From: a virus | Reading direction: 5' to 3' (one strand) | Length of the DNA stretch: 43,627 bases | IMG/VR virus record: IMGVR_UViG_3300019871_000004 | Coordinates: 1-43,627 of that record | Part shown: one piece after another, positions 3,256 through 43,627 of the stretch | How the letters are laid out: every line of letters starts with the position of its first letter | How positions within the stretch are numbered: position 1 is the first letter of the stretch | Program-made: the position numbers and the translations under genes | The notes under the pieces: model-generated | What the model was told of the DNA's origin: nothing | The model's input: the letters and a program-made list of their open reading frames with translations, nothing else | The model's database searches: none

Positions 3256-3320
3256 CCGAGTGGTCGACCGCGTTTGGCCGTGGCGGCGTTTCATGCAAAG
3301 ATCGCCCCGGACAGACAATT

Positions 3321-3357
3321 GTTCCCGGCGAGCATCGACCAGAACGCCCCCGGGAAC
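3321..3357. promoter_or_regulatory. Inverted GTTCCCGG half-sites upstream of integrase
   Basis: GTTCCCGG at 3321-3328 and its reverse complement CCGGGAAC at 3350-3357 lie 21 bp apart between the excisionase-like gene and the integrase. They match the core of the 11-bp iteron GTTCCCGATCC found at 4968-5236 and 12721-12742, so the same protein may bind here. The nearly 160 bp between the two genes holds little else except the leader peptide at 3380. Confidence 0.5.
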
Positions 3358-3379
3358 CGGCCACCAGGAGGACTCCCTG

Positions 3380-3412
3380 ATGACGAAGACGACGATAACG
3401 GTGATGGGCTGA
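3380..3412 (+). CDS. Leader peptide upstream of integrase
   Basis: Ten codons (MTKTTITVMG) with the strongest ribosome-binding site in this part of the genome, AGGAGG at 3366-3371, eight bases before the ATG. Its stop codon overlaps the integrase ATG (TGATG at 3410-3414). The integrase start has no good ribosome-binding site of its own, so integrase translation is probably coupled to this peptide. The Thr-rich content (four of ten) could make it responsive to threonyl-tRNA, which is speculation. Confidence 0.5.
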   Translation: MTKTTITVMG

Positions 3413-4641
3413 TGGCATCGATCCAGCCCACCCCACAAGGCACGTTCATGGTCTGCTGGACCGAACCGGGCGGGCGTCGGAAAAAGAAGGTGAAGAAGAC
3501 CAGGCCGGAGGCCCAGGAGTACAAGGCCGAAGTCGAACGCCGCATCTCGGAGGTCAAGCCCGTGAACCGCCGCAGTGACGTCCCGATCCTGACCGAGTTC
3601 ATCGAAACGGTTCTGGCCGGGTGGGTAGGCGAGGTCTCCCCCCGCACCCTGAAGCTCTACGCCAGTCAGCTCGAATGCCACGTCATCCCCTCGATCGGTC
3701 ACCTGCCCCTCGTCGACCTCCGTCCCCGCCGTCTCGGCGAATGGCAGAAGGAACGGCTGGCCGAAGGAGCCGGACGTGCGACGTTGGGGAAGGCCCAGGG
3801 CCTCCTCGGCAAGATCCTCGCCGAGGCCGTGCTGCCCTGGGAGTACCTGGATCACAACCCTGTCAGGGACCTGAAGAAGCCGCGCTACGAATCGAAGCAG
3901 CACCGCTGGCTGACGCCCGCGCAGGTGGAGGCGATCCGCAACTGGTACCTCGGTCGTGAAGACGCTCGCGTCAGAGGCGCGCGGATCCGGGACGTCGGCT
4001 CGGCGACCCTGATCTCCGTCCTCGCCTACGTCGGGATGCGACCCCAGAGCGCCCTGGCATTGACCTGGGCCGACCTGGTCGACGAGCGTCCCGGGTGGGC
4101 CGTACACACCGAACCCGGCGGCGGCCGGATCTGCGTCGACAAGAAGAACGTAGACGGCGTGATCGAGAACGGATCGAAGACCTCCGCGACGGCGAAATAC
4201 TGGGTCTACATCCCGGCCCCCGTGATGGGCGACCTGGAAGCCTGGCGAGCGGCGAGCGGCGGCCGACCGGGCGACCTGATCTTCCCGACCGCGCACGGCA
4301 AACCGTGGACGAAACGGAACTGGGACGACTGGAGCAACTACGACCAGAAGACCAGGAAGAACCGGCCGAAGTGCTTCAAGAAGGCGATCGAAGACTCGCT
4401 GCCCGACATCGACCCCCTCCCCCCCTACGGGCTTCGCCATACCGCCGCGACGCTGTTCGTCGCCGCCGGGTGGAACCACATGGAGACCGCCAAGCAGCTC
4501 ATGCACGGCCCGGAGGTCTCGATGCGCACCTACCAGCACCTGTACGACGAACGCCCGAGCGACGGCGAGCGGCACTCGGTCGAGCACCACATCCGCGCGG
4601 CTCGCGGTCAACACCCACCCGACTTGAGACTCGTTGCCTGA
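3412..4641 (+). CDS. int: Tyrosine integrase
   Basis: 409-residue site-specific recombinase that would insert the phage into the host chromosome. An N-terminal arm-binding-type domain (SIQPTPQGTFMVCWTEPGG, about 1-50) is followed by a SAM-like core-binding domain (60-160, WVGEVSPRTLKLYASQL) and the catalytic domain. Visible catalytic positions are Arg210 (GMRPQSALALTW), probably Lys257, Arg342 in YGLRH, His365 and the nucleophile Tyr374 (RTYQHL). The usual first His of HxxR is Tyr339. An upstream in-frame ATG at 3274 would add 46 residues but has no ribosome site and crosses the intergenic region, so 3412 was chosen. The excisionase-like gene precedes it and an iteron region follows. Confidence 0.93.
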   Translation: MASIQPTPQGTFMVCWTEPGGRRKKKVKKTRPEAQEYKAEVERRISEVKPVNRRSDVPILTEFIETVLAGWVGEVSPRTLKLYASQLECHVIPSIGHLPLVDLRPRRLGEWQKERLAEGAGRATLGKAQGLLGKILAEAVLPWEYLDHNPVRDLKKPRYESKQHRWLTPAQVEAIRNWYLGREDARVRGARIRDVGSATLISVLAYVGMRPQSALALTWADLVDERPGWAVHTEPGGGRICVDKKNVDGVIENGSKTSATAKYWVYIPAPVMGDLEAWRAASGGRPGDLIFPTAHGKPWTKRNWDDWSNYDQKTRKNRPKCFKKAIEDSLPDIDPLPPYGLRHTAATLFVAAGWNHMETAKQLMHGPEVSMRTYQHLYDERPSDGERHSVEHHIRAARGQHPPDLRLVA

Positions 4642-5250: not shown

Positions 5251-6024
5251 ATGACGGACGTCGCCACCGTCGAACTTGCGGCCGAGAACCTGGCCGACTT
5301 GTCGTTGCCGGAACTCGGCAGGCTCGCATCCGCTGAACACGAGATGGGGGTGGAGAGCGGCCTCCAGATGATTCGCCACATCGTTCGAGCTGGGGAAGCG
5401 CTACTCGCCGCCCGGAACAAAATCCCTGCGGGCGGCTGGCTGGCGTGGTGCGACAAGCACTTCATCTCGTCCCCAACCACCGCCTCAACCTACATGCGGA
5501 TCGCCTTTTACCAATCTGAGATTCCGGGGGGCACGAAGAACCTGATCGAGGCGCGGGATCTCCTTCGCGGTCTTCCGGCAATCACCGGACATCCGGGAAG
5601 CGGCGGCTACGGCAATGACATCAAAAAGGAGGCCGCTCGCCTCCGACGCGACGGCCTCACATTGGAACAGGTCTCGGAGAAACTCGGAATCTCGTTTTCG
5701 ACGATCGCCAAGTGGGGCGGGAAAAACCTCACGGCGCGGCAGAAGGAAAGCCAACGAAAGAAGGAGCTGAACGCTGGAAGGCGAGCATTGAAGGAAGCTG
5801 AACGGGATAGGACGATGAAGGCGGCGGACGAGCGTGCGTCGGAGGTCTACTTCGCGCTTCGCAAGGCGAGCAAAACGCTAGATCAGCTTCGGGACGAGCG
5901 GGGCCAAGAACCCTCGTCGGGCTCACTGACCGAAGCCATCGCCCGGTGCCACCAGGCCGAGGCAGTCCTGTTTAAGATTTTCGGCTCCGGCGTGGGCAGC
6001 GTCCAGGAAGGGGTGCTGAGATGA
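5251..6024 (+). CDS. DUF3102-like DNA-binding protein
   Basis: 257 residues with a textbook ribosome site (GAGGAGG before ATG). Residues 45-90 (GEALLAARNKIPAGGWLAWC, then TASTYMRIA) match the pattern of DUF3102-like phage/plasmid proteins in which a small helical domain with an aromatic GxW core recognises DNA. A helix-turn-helix follows at about 130-155 (LTLEQVSEKLGISFSTIAKW), then a long Lys/Arg/Glu coiled coil. The iterons end 14 bp upstream of its start, so it may regulate itself. A regulatory or partition-like role is possible; the exact function is unknown. Confidence 0.65.
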   Translation: MTDVATVELAAENLADLSLPELGRLASAEHEMGVESGLQMIRHIVRAGEALLAARNKIPAGGWLAWCDKHFISSPTTASTYMRIAFYQSEIPGGTKNLIEARDLLRGLPAITGHPGSGGYGNDIKKEAARLRRDGLTLEQVSEKLGISFSTIAKWGGKNLTARQKESQRKKELNAGRRALKEAERDRTMKAADERASEVYFALRKASKTLDQLRDERGQEPSSGSLTEAIARCHQAEAVLFKIFGSGVGSVQEGVLR

Positions 6025-6899: not shown

Positions 6900-7222
6900 G
6901 CATCAGCGCCGCCCATCCCCGCCAGCGGAAGAAGGTCGCGGCCGAGGTCTGCATCGTCTGCGGCCGGGGTCCCGAACAGGAGAAGATCGACCCGGCGCAC
7001 CTGTGGGACCGGAGCCGCGGCGGCTGCGACGACATCGACTGCGTGGTCCCGCTGTGCCGGACCCACCACCGCGAATACGACGAAAAAAAGCTCGATATTC
7101 TTCCGTCGTTGATCGCGGCGAAGATGTGGCACGAGATGGGCCACCCGATCATCCGCCACGAAGTCAGTCCACTCCGGCTCACCCGCCGGCTAACAGGGGA
7201 AGGTCTGCCATCAAAGGTCTGA
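6896..7222 (+). CDS. HNH endonuclease-like protein
   Basis: 108 residues. A zinc-binding frame of C19xxC22 and C49/C54...H58 encloses DPAH (His35) and VVPLCRTHHREYD, the pattern of His-Me-finger nucleases in which the DPAH or DHI histidine is the general base. Small HNH proteins of this size in phages cut DNA during packaging or recombination, or act on Holliday junctions. The protein lies between two DNA-binding genes and the Fic gene rather than next to terL. Its stop TGA forms a CTGA overlap with the next gene. Confidence 0.75.
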   Translation: MSISAAHPRQRKKVAAEVCIVCGRGPEQEKIDPAHLWDRSRGGCDDIDCVVPLCRTHHREYDEKKLDILPSLIAAKMWHEMGHPIIRHEVSPLRLTRRLTGEGLPSKV

Positions 7223-9662: not shown

Positions 9663-10063
9663 GGGCGACTGCGCATCGCATGGGGCTTTGGACGGTACCC
9701 CGGTAAAGGATCCCGGACCTTCGGATACCGCATGAAATCCGGATGGGATCATCAAGGGGCGTCATGACATTGCCCTCAGAACGCCTTACAGAGCGCCGGA
9801 AATCCCTGCTAGCCTGCATTTGCGTTTGTTTAGTGGACTGACGCACCCGCGGCGTCGATCTCCTCCAGAGGTCGGCGCCGCTTCAGCGAGGGCGAGCCGG
9901 GCAAGAAAAAAGCCCCCCGGATCCCGAGAGGCTTTTTTCAAATCGCGGTCTGTACTTGTGCCCTACCGTCGCGCGGCGTCAAATTTCCGGTTGTGGCGGA
10001 GCGAGCTCCACGCGAGGAATGCCCAGAAACCGCCCATCGTGGCGATGATGATCAGCGCGCCGA
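9663..10063. other. 400-bp intergenic region
   Basis: No convincing gene. It holds a CAGTCCACTA box (9831-9842) followed on the minus strand by AACGCAAATG, similar to the box-plus-start region of the gene at 10628, and a bidirectional terminator at 9905-9938. The minus-strand frame after the box lacks a ribosome site and runs into the 9153-9662 gene, so it may be the remnant of a lost cassette. Confidence 0.5.
9905..9938. terminator. Bidirectional intrinsic terminator
   Basis: A stable GC hairpin (AGCC... GGCT, with inner CGG/CCG) is flanked by A6 on the left and T6 on the right, so it can stop transcription from both directions. It separates the plus-strand gene ending at 9662 from the minus-strand cluster ending at 10064. 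Confidence 0.85.
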
Positions 10064-10249
10064 TCATGCGGCGACCTGGTACAGCCGCTGCCGACTGAGC
10101 CCGAGGATCGCCGCGACCTTCGACACTTCCCGCGTCCCCTTCACCGCAGAGGCGATCTCAGCGGTTTCACGGTCGATCTTGGCTTGTGCCCGCGCGACCC
10201 TCTCCCGTGCCGCCTTGAGCGCCGTGGCGCGTTCTTCCAGGGCGCTCAC
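10064..10249 (-). CDS. Small coiled-coil HTH protein
   Basis: 61 residues from GTG at 10249; a longer version from 10294 would overlap the upstream gene. A long charged helix (ARERVARAQAKIDRETAEI) is followed by a C-terminal helix-turn-helix (SKVAAILGLSRQRLYQV). It is the last gene of the minus-strand cluster and probably a DNA-binding regulator. Confidence 0.6.
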   Translation of the reverse strand: MSALEERATALKAARERVARAQAKIDRETAEIASAVKGTREVSKVAAILGLSRQRLYQVAA

Positions 10250-10265
10250 GATGCGTCGGGATCCT

Positions 10266-10628
10266 TCAACCCGAACGCGGCAAGCTGTCGGCAAGCGCAG
10301 CGCGCTCGTCGGACTCCAACTCGGCGAAGTAGGACGGATCCGAATCCGACTCGACGCCCCAGATCCCCGCGCTCGGAAGCTCGACGATCTGGTACGTCCC
10401 GTCCGGGTGCGAATCGAAGTACAGGCGCACCGTGGCCTTGGCGACGACGCCGACGAAATACCACTCGCCCCGGTTATAGGCGTCGATCCGGTCCCGATCC
10501 TGCGCCCGGTAGTTGAGAACGTCGTTTTCCGCCTCTCCTAGATAGCGGTCCGGATCTTCCAGGGCACTCAGGTCGGCGGCTGGATCGGTCGGTCGCTCAA
10601 TCTCGATTTTGTCGACAACAGCTTTCAT
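10266..10628 (-). CDS. Acidic protein, unknown
   Basis: 120 residues, acidic. A middle segment (NDVLNYRAQDRDRIDAYNRG) is followed by a beta-rich stretch (WYFVGVVAKATVRL), with a Ser/Asp-rich C terminus. The protein is preceded by a CAGTCCACTA box, an AAGGGG ribosome site and ATG. The family is not recognised. It lies downstream of the T-arm-like RNA element at 10673. Confidence 0.65.
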   Translation of the reverse strand: MKAVVDKIEIERPTDPAADLSALEDPDRYLGEAENDVLNYRAQDRDRIDAYNRGEWYFVGVVAKATVRLYFDSHPDGTYQIVELPSAGIWGVESDSDPSYFAELESDERAALADSLPRSG

Positions 10629-10642
10629 TGCGTTCCCCTTCG

Positions 10643-10654
10643 TAGTGGACTGAC
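10643..10654 (-). repeat. CAGTCCACTA box (also at 9831, 11185, 11686, 12279)
   Basis: TAGTGGACTGAC on the plus strand recurs at 9831-9842, 10643-10654 and 11185-11196, with an inserted base at 11686-11698 and a two-base variant at 12279-12290. On the minus strand it reads GTCAGTCCACTA and lies 12-40 bases before the ATG of minus-strand genes, directly before the ribosome site in three cases. It resembles start-associated sequences of some actinobacteriophages. Its role, as promoter part, protein site or recombination boundary, is unknown. Confidence 0.75.
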
Positions 10655-10670
10655 TGCCGCTTGAGCGGCA
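10655..10670 (-). other. Hairpin before the 10628 gene
   Basis: TGCCGC-TTGA-GCGGCA forms a perfect 6-bp stem with a 4-base loop, between the CAGTCCACTA box and the T-arm-like element. It is too short and lacks a T-run to act as a terminator. It may protect or process the mRNA between cistrons. Confidence 0.5.
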
Positions 10671-10672
10671 AG

Positions 10673-10711
10673 GGGCGGCCGGGAATCGAACCCGGCCAAA
10701 ACCATTCGCCC
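10673..10711 (-). ncRNA. T-arm-like minihelix RNA element 1
   Basis: Read on the minus strand, the last base of the stop codon at 10713-10711 begins GGGCG, followed by AATGGTTTTG, then a 6-bp stem GCCGGG/CCCGGC closing a 7-base loop TTCGATT, then CGCCC that pairs with GGGCG. The loop is a standard tRNA T-loop (TTCRANY), and the two stems stack as an acceptor-plus-T-arm minihelix with a 10-base bulge. No D-arm, anticodon arm or CCA is present, so it is not a tRNA. A near-identical architecture occurs at 11205-11244 with different stem bases. Confidence 0.7.
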
Positions 10712-10962
10712 TAGCGGTCGAGCGCGCCTACCCCCGACGTGTAACGGACCGTCCCGTCCGCGTCGCTGACGCTGAATTCGAACGAGCCATCCTCCTCGAC
10801 CCGCGTGATGCGGACACACGGCCGGACGCTCTCCGGCGCGGGTCCCCAGTTCTTCGCGGCGAAGCAGGTACGCGGCGACGGCGCGGTGTTCGCGGCGGTT
10901 GCCACCTGCGAGGCCCCGAACCCTGCGAGCGCGACTGCGGCGATTGCGAGCGGGCGCCTCAT
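10711..10962 (-). CDS. Small secreted protein, unknown (moron-like)
   Basis: 83 residues with a clear signal peptide: basic MRR, a hydrophobic stretch PLAIAAVALAGFGASQ, and ATAA before the likely cleavage. The mature part is about 60 residues with two cysteines (TCFAAKNWG and RPCVRI) that could form a disulphide. Lysogeny-expressed secreted proteins often alter the host surface or block superinfection. ATG overlaps the upstream stop. The stop codon is part of RNA element 1. Confidence 0.7.
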   Translation of the reverse strand: MRRPLAIAAVALAGFGASQVATAANTAPSPRTCFAAKNWGPAPESVRPCVRITRVEEDGSFEFSVSDADGTVRYTSGVGALDR

Positions 10963-11168
10963 GCCGCCAGCTTCTTGATACCGGCGATGTACGGGCCGAC
11001 CGTCTCCGAGTCATATTCGTCTCCCGTGTCGGGGACGCGCACCGCGCCGCCGACGAATCGGACGTCGACCGCGCCCGTCCTGGTCAGGGCGTCGATCAGC
11101 GCCTCGGTAGCGTCGAACTCATCCCCCTCGAATTTGAAGACGACAGCGGATGCGTAAATCTTTGCCAT
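10959..11168 (-). CDS. Small protein, unknown
   Basis: 69 residues with a possible beta-alpha-beta fold: MAKIYASAVVFKFEGDEFD, a helix TEALIDALTRTG, then VDVRFVGGAVRVPD. No catalytic motif is visible. It is preceded by a CAGTCCACTA box and AAAGG, and coupled to the secreted protein gene by an ATGA overlap, so both are made from the same messenger. Confidence 0.65.
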   Translation of the reverse strand: MAKIYASAVVFKFEGDEFDATEALIDALTRTGAVDVRFVGGAVRVPDTGDEYDSETVGPYIAGIKKLAA

Positions 11169-11204
11169 GGTGCTTACCTTTCGTTAGTGGACTGACTGTG
11201 AAAG

Positions 11205-11244
11205 GGGCGGCGCAGGATCGAACCTGCGCGTTGACCATCCGCCC
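11205..11244 (-). ncRNA. T-arm-like minihelix RNA element 2
   Basis: On the minus strand, starting at the G of the stop codon at 11246-11244: GGGCG, a 10-base bulge GATGGTCAAC, a 7-bp stem GCGCAGG/CCTGCGC with loop TTCGAT, then CGCCC pairing with GGGCG. The outer helix, bulge length and TTCGAT loop match element 1, while the inner stem has different but still paired bases, so the pairing rather than the sequence is kept. The loop is one base shorter than a standard T-loop. Confidence 0.7.
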
Positions 11245-11669
11245 TAGCTGCGCGCGTGTAGCCGGAAGCGCTCAGCAACGTCAAGGTAGGCGTGGACCTC
11301 ATCGTCGTCCACAACCTCAACCGATCCCTGCACCGGCCCGTTCCCGACGACGTTGAACAGCCGCCCTTCAGCATCCTCGATGAGGGATCCGCGCTCGAAC
11401 TCATGCAGCGGCTTCGCGTAGTCGGGAAACTCCCCTTCGTCGTCTTTCGTAAACGACGCCCACCAGATTTCGCCGAACTCCGCCTCCTCCTCCGGCAGCG
11501 CCATCGTGAACTTGCCGACCGTGTTGCCGTTCACTTCGGTGATGCTGCCGTGATCAACCGGGGTTTCTTCGATCTGATCGGCGAGCACCCGCAGTTCGGC
11601 GGCGATGTGCTCCGGCGTCCGCATCTCGGCGTTGCCTAGCTCGATCTCAAGGGTGAATTTTCCGCTCAT
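11244..11669 (-). CDS. Acidic protein, unknown
   Basis: 141 residues, strongly acidic. A helical segment (TPEHIAAELRVLADQIEE) is followed by a mixed region with WWASF and a C-terminal beta-rich part (RLFNVVGNGPVQGSVEVV). It starts with ATG, preceded by a variant CAGTCCACTA box and a purine-rich stretch. The acidity would suit a protein that mimics DNA, a common type of anti-restriction factor, but this is only an inference from charge. Confidence 0.65.
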   Translation of the reverse strand: MSGKFTLEIELGNAEMRTPEHIAAELRVLADQIEETPVDHGSITEVNGNTVGKFTMALPEEEAEFGEIWWASFTKDDEGEFPDYAKPLHEFERGSLIEDAEGRLFNVVGNGPVQGSVEVVDDDEVHAYLDVAERFRLHARS

Positions 11670-11700
11670 GGTTCCTACTTTCGTCTAGTGGACTTGACCG

Positions 11701-11749
11701 GGCCTGATGCCCGCTCAAACGCTCCGGAGAGCGCTCAAGCGGGAACCTA
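11701..11749 (-). ncRNA. Stop-codon-linked hairpin, family 2, copy 1
   Basis: After TAG (11749-11747) the minus strand reads GTTCCCGCTTGAG, with an outer stem CCCGCT/AGCGGG, an inner stem CGCTC/GAGCG and loop TCCG, then ATCAGGCC. It shares its ends (TAGGTTCCCG and ATCAGGCC) and nested two-stem plan with the element at 11966-12014, while the stem bases differ and still pair. It probably separates or stabilises cistrons. Confidence 0.6.
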
Positions 11750-11938
11750 GGCAGCCAGCGCGTCTTGCTCCGCGATGTAGCGCTCCAACCCTTCACAAAC
11801 CAGGCTGGCGATGGCGCTTCGCTGCTCGGGACTCGAATGCGGAAAGCCGTCTATTGCCTGCTGGGCCTTCCCGCTCATGTTTTCGGCGAACTCCGTGCCG
11901 ATCTCGCCTGCCCGTTCCTGCGCTGCGGTGGGTTCCAT
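11747..11938 (-). CDS. Small acidic helical protein, unknown
   Basis: 63 residues from ATG at 11938, supported by GGAAGGATCGG just upstream; a longer version from 11992 lacks support. The protein is acidic and helical (QERAGEIGTEFAENMSGKAQ, then SPEQRSAIASLVCEGLERY). Its start is not preceded by a CAGTCCACTA box, but family 2 RNA elements lie on both sides. Confidence 0.6.
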   Translation of the reverse strand: MEPTAAQERAGEIGTEFAENMSGKAQQAIDGFPHSSPEQRSAIASLVCEGLERYIAEQDALAA

Positions 11939-11965
11939 ATCCGATCCTTCCGATAGCTGTAGTTC

Positions 11966-12014
11966 GGCCTGATTGCCGACCAGACGCCCCACAGGGCGCC
12001 AAGCCGGGAACCTA
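11966..12014 (-). ncRNA. Stop-codon-linked hairpin, family 2, copy 2
   Basis: After TAG (12014-12012) the minus strand reads GTTCCCGGCTTGG, with an outer stem CCGGC/GTCGG (one G-U pair), an inner stem CGCCC/GGGCG and loop TGTG, then AATCAGGCC. It is the partner of the element at 11701-11749 with compensatory changes in both stems. Confidence 0.6.
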
Positions 12015-12248
12015 GGCGGTCCGCGCCACGTCGACGTGGAAAGTCTCCGGCATCAGCGCCACGTACTCGGGGAAGCCGACGAACTCCAGCGCGATCATGC
12101 GCGCGCCCTCAGACATCAGCGGCGTGACCTCGCTGACCTTCAGCGGCCCGATGCGCGGCGTGTGGACCACGTCCCCGGCGCCGATCTCGTTCGCAAGGGT
12201 TCCACCTTCGGCAAGGGGACGTTGGCGGATGATGATGAATTGGCTCAT
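12012..12248 (-). CDS. Small protein, unknown
   Basis: 78 residues from ATG at 12248, with a CTGGAGG ribosome site. A beta-rich body (MSQFIIIRQRPLA, VVHTPRIGPLKVSEVTPL, ALEFVGFPEYV) resembles small barrel folds. It is the first gene of the minus-strand cluster; a variant CAGTCCACTA box lies at 12279-12290. The function is not recognised. Confidence 0.6.
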   Translation of the reverse strand: MSQFIIIRQRPLAEGGTLANEIGAGDVVHTPRIGPLKVSEVTPLMSEGARMIALEFVGFPEYVALMPETFHVDVARTA

Positions 12249-12311
12249 CTCGAAACCTCCAGTTTCGTAATGGGTGCGTAGTGGACTGCCACGGCAATGT
12301 AATGACAATCC

Positions 12312-12548
12312 ATGAAGGTGTCAACCCCCGTAGACACATCGGACCCGATCTTGTACCTGCTCCCACCCGGTCAGACCATGGCAGACGTGCTCAAGAGAGA
12401 TGCCGAACTCCTGCAAAGCGAGGGAATCGACATCGGCCTCACTCCACCATCGCCGCCGCAACCGGAAGCATCCCCGGTACCCATGCCAACCAGAGAAGGA
12501 CAGAGCCAAGGGTTGGATGTACGGAGTAGAGCGAAGCGCAGTTCGTAA
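12312..12548 (+). CDS. Small proline-rich protein, unknown
   Basis: 78 residues. An ordered N-terminal half (SDPILYLLPPGQTMADVLKR) is followed by a low-complexity Pro/Ser/Arg C-terminal half. The ATG has no ribosome site and lies six bases after TAATGA, so the transcript could be leaderless. The TGTAATGACA element before it (12299-12308) recurs at 13576-13585. It is coded divergently from the minus-strand cluster and may be a regulator. It could be spurious. Confidence 0.4.
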   Translation: MKVSTPVDTSDPILYLLPPGQTMADVLKRDAELLQSEGIDIGLTPPSPPQPEASPVPMPTREGQSQGLDVRSRAKRSS

Positions 12549-43183: not shown

Positions 43184-43627
43184 GCCAGGAGTACGCCATC
43201 ACCACGGTCGGCCCTCCCCGGCCGTGGCAGAACAAGCGTGGCGATCAGATGGTCTCCTACGACGTCGGCATCGAGGGCGTCTACGGCACTGTCGAGTGGG
43301 CGCGGAAACCCGACTCCGACCCGCCCGTCGCGGGCTCGACCACGCCGCTCTCGAACATCGAAGACACGACGTACGGGAAGAAGCTGAAAGTCGACTGGGA
43401 CGCGGTCAAAGCCGGAGGGTCGGGAGGCCCCCCGGCGACCAGCTCGGCGGGCTCGGCCAACTTCGGCGGCGACTATCAGCGCCCGCTCCGCCCCGAGGTC
43501 CAGCGGGCGATCCAGCGCCAGCACTCCCAGGAGATGGCGCTTCGCTTCCTCGCCCTCAACAGGCAGTCGCCGTCTTACGAGGACGTCTTCAAGGCCGCCG
43601 ACGCCTTCGACGCCGACATCAACCGCC
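43180..43627 (+). CDS. SSB-like protein, N-terminal part (continues at 138-532)
   Basis: ATG at 43180 overlaps the previous stop. The first 75 residues are beta-rich (YAITTVGPPRPWQNKRGDQM, then SYDVGIEGVYGTVEWARKPD and YGKKLKVDW), as in an OB fold; a Gly/Ser linker and a helical part follow (RPEVQRAIQRQHSQ). The frame reaches the end of the window and continues at bases 138-532 after circular closure, giving about 290 residues in all. The single-strand-binding assignment rests on this plan and on the acidic patch near the C terminus. Confidence 0.5.
   Translation, partial: MSQEYAITTVGPPRPWQNKRGDQMVSYDVGIEGVYGTVEWARKPDSDPPVAGSTTPLSNIEDTTYGKKLKVDWDAVKAGGSGGPPATSSAGSANFGGDYQRPLRPEVQRAIQRQHSQEMALRFLALNRQSPSYEDVFKAADAFDADINR
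43502..43627. repeat. Terminal direct repeat, copy 2
   Basis: Identical to bases 12-137. It lies inside the SSB-like gene that begins at 43180 and continues at 138-532 after circular closure. Confidence 0.9.

Follow-up and report, generated by a model that had tools for sequence, protein, structure and literature searches.

Comparison with other viral sequences confirms that the minus strand of the phage DNA analysed here (the window, 43,627 nucleotides in full) carries at 10673-10711 one member of a large RNA family. A copy of this family is about 40 nt long and comprises a 5-bp acceptor-like stem, a 6-bp T-stem, a TTCGANT T-loop and a bulge bearing GG. As far as sequence comparison can tell, the element is conserved, shares an 11-bp acceptor/T structure, is placed in sense between genes and is of general occurrence. 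We give about even chances to the reading that it is a minimal tRNA mimic serving as a gene separator, at which RNase P cuts polycistronic early phage mRNA.

The window is a temperate tailed phage of 43.6 kb, in which genes for terminase, portal and major head protein were found, together with an integrase at 3274-4641. Its ends (1-137 and 43491-43627) form a direct repeat, 96% identical, as expected for the contig of a terminally redundant or circular genome, though not exact. Two copies of the element lie in a leftward cluster of small genes with the following features:

10673-10711, minus strand: mini-tRNA element 1 (model R1, 60.5 bits; model R2, 48.3 bits)
11205-11244, minus strand: mini-tRNA element 2 (model R1, 42.3 bits; also scored with model R2)
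10711-10713, minus strand: TAG stop of the gene upstream of element 1, its G being helix base +1 of element 1
11244-11246, minus strand: TAG stop of the gene upstream of element 2, its G being helix base +1 of element 2
10654-10671, minus strand: 7-bp hairpin directly 3' of element 1 (TTGCCGC-TCAA-GCGGCAG)
10711-10962, minus strand: gene upstream of element 1, 83 aa, no Pfam match above cut-off
10266-10628, minus strand: gene downstream of element 1, 120 aa, no Pfam match
11244-11669, minus strand: gene upstream of element 2, 141 aa, no Pfam match above cut-off
10959-11168, minus strand: gene downstream of element 2, 69 aa, no Pfam match above cut-off
12296-12324, minus strand: weak sigma-70-like promoter match, candidate start of the leftward operon (1 found versus 0.4 expected)
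9913-9931, minus strand: terminator-like hairpin with a T-run, candidate end of the leftward operon

The promoter match at 12324-12296, the only sigma-70-like one within 9800-12500, and the T-run terminator at 9931-9913 suggest that the cluster, with both elements, is one transcript. Element 1 reads on the minus strand as TA followed by GGGCG-aatggttttg-GCCGGG-TTCGATT-CCCGGC-CGCCC, its helix running from 10711 to 10673, and thus divides into an acceptor-like stem (GGGCG/CGCCC), a bulge (aatGGttttg), a T-stem (GCCGGG/CCCGGC) and a T-loop (TTCGATT). Element 2 (GGGCG-gatggtcaac-GCGCAGG-TTCGAT-CCTGCGC-CGCCC, bulge gatGGtcaac) differs from it in stem bases and has a T-loop of 6 nt (TTCGAT), not 7. 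The hairpin behind element 1 (10671-10654), the counterpart of downstream hairpins in other phages, is followed by a leader and then by the ATG of the gene at 10266-10628.

Two further repeats were noticed in the same cluster. Elements of a second class, about 61 nt long (11701-11761 and 11966-12026, minus strand, 74% alike), also begin at a TAG stop and form a long hairpin, at two other junctions. A leader motif, CAGTCCACTA, precedes cluster genes on the minus strand at 9831-9840, 10643-10652, 11185-11194, 11686-11695 and 12279-12288; these five copies (one with a mismatch) and a plus-strand match at 7165 compare with 0.93 expected, and a close form is present in a related contig (L208). The motif is possibly a promoter or a translation signal.

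Folding of the single sequence is not decisive for the structure of the element; comparison between copies is. The predicted fold was weakly better than that of shuffled sequences (z of -1.3 for 61 nt and -2.0 for 40 nt, with -1.6 to -2.4 for four window stretches), and in a 74-nt context the predicted minimum free energy structure gives the GGGC strand another partner, so that the case for the fold is a comparative one. A pattern with the window's acceptor matched in nine viral contigs, and a pairing scan of those contigs and the window found 21 copies, versus none in reversed or complemented controls. In a 21-copy seed alignment 96.1% of cells were paired, with two-sided changes in 10 of the 11 pairs. 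Model R1 had matches in 10 of 10 whole records (E up to 0.1), and at E up to 0.01 another 78 viral contigs yielded 175 matches; in one scan, which reported at least 120 stretches, the 80 listed were examined. When the best 150 of 180 copies, from 60 sources, were aligned, the 143 distinct rows had 99.7% of cells paired, covariation in 10 of 11 pairs, and 469 cells with two-sided changes versus 134 in shuffles. An exact 26-mer scan of viral contigs returned one contig only, and BLAST of the window region against named phages found nothing. The covariation across copies confirms the sequence and RNA fold that a sequence-only reading had proposed for 10673-10711, and the third instance in related phages to which that reading had looked is supplied by the model matches and by named isolate phages.

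Because the earlier search steps select for pairing, we also collected an acceptor-blind sample, using a pattern that fixes only the bulge GGCATAC and the inner T-arm (83 distinct sites). At least four of the five acceptor positions pair in the predicted register at 77 of these 83 sites, whereas sliding the register by 1-3 bases leaves acceptor pairing at 2-8 of 83; the outer T-stem is also paired at 75 of 83.

The bulge GG, G53, T54, T55, C56, A58 and C61 are invariant in the 143 rows, all of which thus possess the GG and the TTCRANN loop closed by G53:C61 that are features of tRNA. Position 57 is a purine (G in 140 rows, A in 3), and the first pair is G1:C72 in 137 of 143, while the remaining stem pairs vary freely yet stay paired. 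D-stem, anticodon arm and CCA are absent from the family, and 10-12 nt, mostly of the form A-N-Y-GG-C-A-N-A-C-A, stand in for both arms. The claim of a fixed 10-base bulge consequently holds for the window copies, which do have 10 bases, but not as a fixed filler, since across the family the length varies from 10 to 12 nt around the invariant GG. Secondary-structure comparison shows the pairing itself, and the acceptor-like stem would be stacked on the T-stem. By analogy, the bulge resembles a tRNA D-loop without its stem, with GG as the likely counterpart of G18G19. The D/T-loop contact of tRNA is described as involving G18, G19, U55 and C56 (PMC4394434), and the bulge GG may dock on the T-loop in the same manner. 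Mimicry of the acceptor/T half of a tRNA, as originally proposed, is supported by the conserved T-loop, the GG and the paired stems.

Beyond the stem, on its 3' side, R73-C74 followed by T or G is the usual sequence, in place of CCA: C occupies N74 in 130 of the 143 rows and N75 in 7. Among the 75 acceptor-blind copies with a paired outer T-stem, whose tail the pattern does not specify, N74 is C in 67 and N73 a purine in 69. Upstream, N-1 is mostly A (112 of 143). As nearly all copies lack CCA at the 3' end, charging is unlikely, and so is the recognition by EF-Tu that had been suggested. For comparison, C74 is encoded in all 33 distinct tRNA genes of Amycolatopsis read from 30 loci (L177-L206), and full CCA in few; these genes encode the discriminator and C74, often without C75-A76.

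We rejected the possibility that the element is a tRNA gene, as the D-arm and anticodon arm of the full cloverleaf are absent. ARAGORN found no tRNA in the window or in three other element-bearing stretches searched (L165, L166, L168), and called one copy of a tandem array (L041) tRNA-Ala by reaching into the spacer. At gathering score, Rfam had no family match in the window, and in four element-bearing loci one true tRNA passed and no element did. A DNA-level role, as an integrase attachment site or a tRNA remnant derived from integration, is extremely improbable. It is true that attP sites often hold a tRNA 3' end and that the window encodes an integrase, but element 1 lies about 6 kb from it, the ARAGORN results speak against a remnant, and the copies, many per genome, have differing, covarying stems and lie on one strand only; their number per record and the distance from the window integrase refute this as a general explanation.

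A typical copy in Streptomyces and Mycobacterium phages lies on the sense strand, 5-14 nt past the stop codon of one gene, with 40-50 nt left to the start of the following one. Of the 56 matches (E up to 0.1) in six named phage records (phiScoe45, Joe, Rope, Cuke, MrMiyagi and phiHau3), 51 fall in gaps that separate genes of the same strand, every one of these 51 in sense orientation; the remaining five are weak, lie over annotated gene starts or, in one case, past the last gene. These placement tables omit the low-strength Joe CDS gp3, gp78, gp80 and gp81 and one cut Cuke CDS, and the omission of gp78 means that one of the intervals is counted as a gap. An element is present in 11/14 gaps of 70-130 nt in Rope, 8/10 in MrMiyagi, 7/9 in Cuke, 5/6 in phiHau3, 7/17 in phiScoe45 and 7/19 in Joe, and in none of the gaps of 45 nt or less in the six records. 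All gap matches of phiScoe45 and Joe lie in the leftward small-gene region, and none in the structural operon. Outside the six-record count, Hubbs (L167) has a single match, in a sense gap, and in LittleE (L170) two of four matches overlap a gene whose annotation is on the opposite strand.

Some annotations near elements deserve a second look. LittleE gp35 (L170, 4679-5068) is annotated on the strand opposite two elements, and a 169-codon frame on the elements' strand ends with TAG at the helix; the annotated strand of gp35 may be wrong. In Cuke (L169), the annotated starts of 5393-5674 and 5625-5957 overlap elements and were therefore probably called too far upstream.

For stop distances, hairpins and flanking families we used 145 copies, after removing identical ones. 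An upstream reading frame of at least 45 codons ends near the element in 134 of the 145, and 81 of those 134 begin 5-14 nt after its stop. The flanking proteins fall into 74 families upstream and 77 downstream, and this number of unrelated families indicates that the element belongs to the junction and not to a gene. In 44% of copies, a count that also drops copies without room, a hairpin of 7 bp or more begins no further than 8 nt 3' of the element, versus 5.4% at random positions and 1.9% in shuffles; this hairpin often starts 1-3 nt past the helix, and in the cases inspected it is separated from the start codon by about 15-25 nt, mostly Shine-Dalgarno sequence.

Hairpins between genes might also act as transcription terminators or attenuators, with CAGTCCACTA conceivably a promoter that restarts transcription, and terminators without poly-U have reportedly been found in actinophages. 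We regard this as highly improbable: no U-tract of an intrinsic terminator follows the elements displayed, the Shine-Dalgarno-filled leader leaves hardly any space for a promoter in the copies inspected, and termination has no need of a T-loop. That the element stays uncut, as a stable mRNA structure that resists exonucleases or insulates ribosomes and thereby sets stability or blocks readthrough or coupling, is unlikely, even though the stacked stem is stable, a second hairpin is frequent and most copies (the 81 of 134 above) lie just outside a terminating ribosome. A plain hairpin would suffice for such a purpose, whereas the T-loop, GG, R73 and C74 are kept while the stems vary.

Several prophages and viral contigs have three or four tandem elements in one gap with no gene between them, which separation alone does not need and which therefore counts against a pure separator. 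Such arrays occur at L041 6612-7004, L161 6879-7271, L064 1910-2152 and L081 132-1525, with G+C-rich spacers of GGCNN-like units. The arrays, and a 57-kb record (G015) with as many as 15 copies, would suit a decoy or small RNA acting in trans, which occupies tRNA-modifying, -cutting or -repair enzymes, defence nucleases included; yet the sense intergenic placement and near-constant distance to the upstream stop argue for a role in cis, and we consider a decoy very unlikely.

Cutting between cistrons by a tRNA-processing enzyme, which the sequence-only reading had already offered, would be the best explanation for the placement, and from the comparisons we infer a D/T-loop contact, an enzyme, a cut site and an effect on the messages. 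The bulge GG, lying on the T-loop, would restore a tRNA elbow in the absence of both D-stem and anticodon arm; the RNase P of the host would bind this elbow and the stacked stem and cut 5' of G1:C72. After the cut the upstream message would end just past its stop codon, and the downstream message would gain a paired 5' end, often followed by a second hairpin, ahead of its Shine-Dalgarno and start codon. Such a system would correspond, in phages, to the tRNA punctuation of mitochondria, except that the tRNA is reduced to about 40 nt. The position between co-directional, unrelated and mostly small genes, with hairpin and Shine-Dalgarno, fits the cutting of a polycistronic message, as in mitochondria, and we count in favour of RNase P that the conserved bases of the element are those the bacterial enzyme is described as reading, namely the elbow, the stacked stem, G1:C72, R73 and C74 (PMC11143913).

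Several observations count against RNase P. The enzyme is said to measure a 12-bp stack (PMC11143913), whereas the consensus stack of the element is 11 bp, short of 12 bp from T-loop to cleavage site. The RCC contact is incomplete, with R73 and C74 in most copies and C75 in 7 of 143. Pairing of N-1 with N73 is not depleted (8 seen versus 6.7 expected), so that anti-pairing finds no support as an RNase P signature. Further points against it are some AT-rich contigs with one or two copies only, and phiC31 and part of R4 without any.

RNase Z could instead cut 3' after N73, leaving a tRNA-like 3' end upstream and a hairpin-led 5' end downstream. The downstream hairpin, so often 1-3 nt past the helix, would then stand at the new 5' end, and the UAG codon would be left whole in the window's subgroup; C75 is avoided, and a CCA end blocks some RNase Z enzymes. 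Mitochondrial punctuation, too, is described as using both RNase P and RNase Z (PMC4394434). Because the prevalence of G1:C72 (137/143) and C74 (67/75), both of which match RNase P contacts, is left unexplained, RNase Z is less likely than RNase P as the cutting enzyme, and we consider it quite unlikely.

The window belongs to a subgroup with a geometry of its own, sampled here as 16 copies from the window and nine related contigs (L001, L003, L005, L008, L009, L010, L207, L208 and L209). For 15 of them, the G of the UAG that closes the upstream gene is also the first helix base. The claim that the helix begins at the stop is therefore sound for this subgroup and fails in the broad sample, where most copies begin 5-14 nt past the stop; release control, which had also been proposed, does not extend to a general rule, as stop-fused geometry belongs to the subgroup. 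A terminating ribosome would have to hold such a helix open, and folding and cutting would thus occur only between ribosomes. The subgroup tails are mostly CTTG or similar, and most copies, window element 1 among them, have no C74. An RNase P cut before G1 is the main weak point here, because it would split the UAG codon.

With one 48-nt copy as query, BLAST gave matches in 84 records of named phages (Streptomyces 55, Mycobacterium 17, Microbacterium 11, Elizabethkingia 1), which are BLAST matches, not each scored with the model. AT-rich viral contigs (36-38% GC) hold one or two good copies each; BLAST of an AT-rich copy found nothing, so this group has no named phage here. With the window element, BLAST returned ten records, four of which were fetched. 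Microcystis phage Mel-JY01 has one copy, which fits R1 at 35.8 bits with a single bulged acceptor base. Halorubrum CGphi46, SkiPole and Bacillus phage Ray17 match in the T-arm alone and are thus not members; we read their matches as tRNA or tRNA-like remnants. Among 296 actinobacterial genomes, with the top 21 or 150 first-look candidates per genome scored, the seed alone had a match, which means that host tRNA genes do not share the element. Amycolatopsis, which hosts one array, has four elements in a prophage-like stretch. Model R2 found no element in phiC31 or in the part of R4 searched, its right part, and the element is hence not essential for this life style.

Taken more broadly, we hold it possible, though somewhat short of an even chance, that many phages, mainly actinobacterial ones but also AT-rich viral contigs with single copies, share a mini-tRNA punctuation code, by which the host's tRNA-maturation machinery cuts early operons into messages of one gene each and which is ribosome-gated in the UAG-fused subgroup. 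If true, a common and so far unannotated RNA family exists in phages widespread in laboratories, among them Streptomyces phages Joe, phiScoe45 and phiHau3 and Mycobacterium phages Rope/Papyrus and Cuke, and tRNA punctuation, known from mitochondria, would have evolved in DNA phages as well, with a stripped-down tRNA. The element opens a direct test of the minimal tRNA that RNase P needs in a living cell, could provide a natural 40-nt processing tag for multi-gene constructs, and helps in annotating phage genomes by showing where genes end and where starts have been called wrongly.

Natural non-tRNA substrates of RNase P are known from phages, for example the C4 RNA of P1/P7 and the M3 RNA of phi80. 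Like the element as we propose it, these are phage RNAs recognised by host RNase P, but by description they are single RNAs and not a repeated intercistronic family. The truncated tRNA-like structures mascRNA and MEN-beta are also processed by tRNA enzymes, but form the 3' ends of mammalian long non-coding RNAs and keep more of the cloverleaf than the phage element does.

The nearest described intergenic repeats that we found are the SAS and ESAS of cluster K phages, which differ in kind. They too are repeated, mostly in one orientation, at starts of non-structural genes, and ESAS have inverted repeats (PMC3203893). SAS, however, is a fixed 13-mer, GGGATAGGAGCCC, at the Shine-Dalgarno or start codon (PMC3203893), whereas the element has covarying stems and a kept T-loop; its position about 40-50 nt upstream of starts and its variable stem sequence exclude identity with either. 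The term 'tRNA-like' does not occur in the SAS/ESAS paper (PMC3203893), nor do 'tRNA' and 'hairpin' in the phiScoe genome paper (PMC10276819). Searches of open-licence full-text literature, preprints aside, showed no description of the element, an absence that carries little weight, and the element is unannotated in the phage records examined. Separators resembling tRNA are a known idea; the element itself is not in Rfam.

Among the closest known parallels are the RNase P model substrates AT1 and pMini and external guide sequences, which likewise consist of acceptor stem, T-stem and T-loop only (PMC11143913). These are synthetic, with a 12-bp stack and RCCA, whereas the phage element is natural, with 11 bp, a GG bulge and mostly RC without CCA. 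In mitochondrial tRNA punctuation, finally, tRNA-like RNA likewise lies between the genes of a polycistronic transcript (PMC4394434); there the separators are whole, working tRNAs, while in these DNA phages a 40-nt fragment without an anticodon would mark the site of a putative cleavage.
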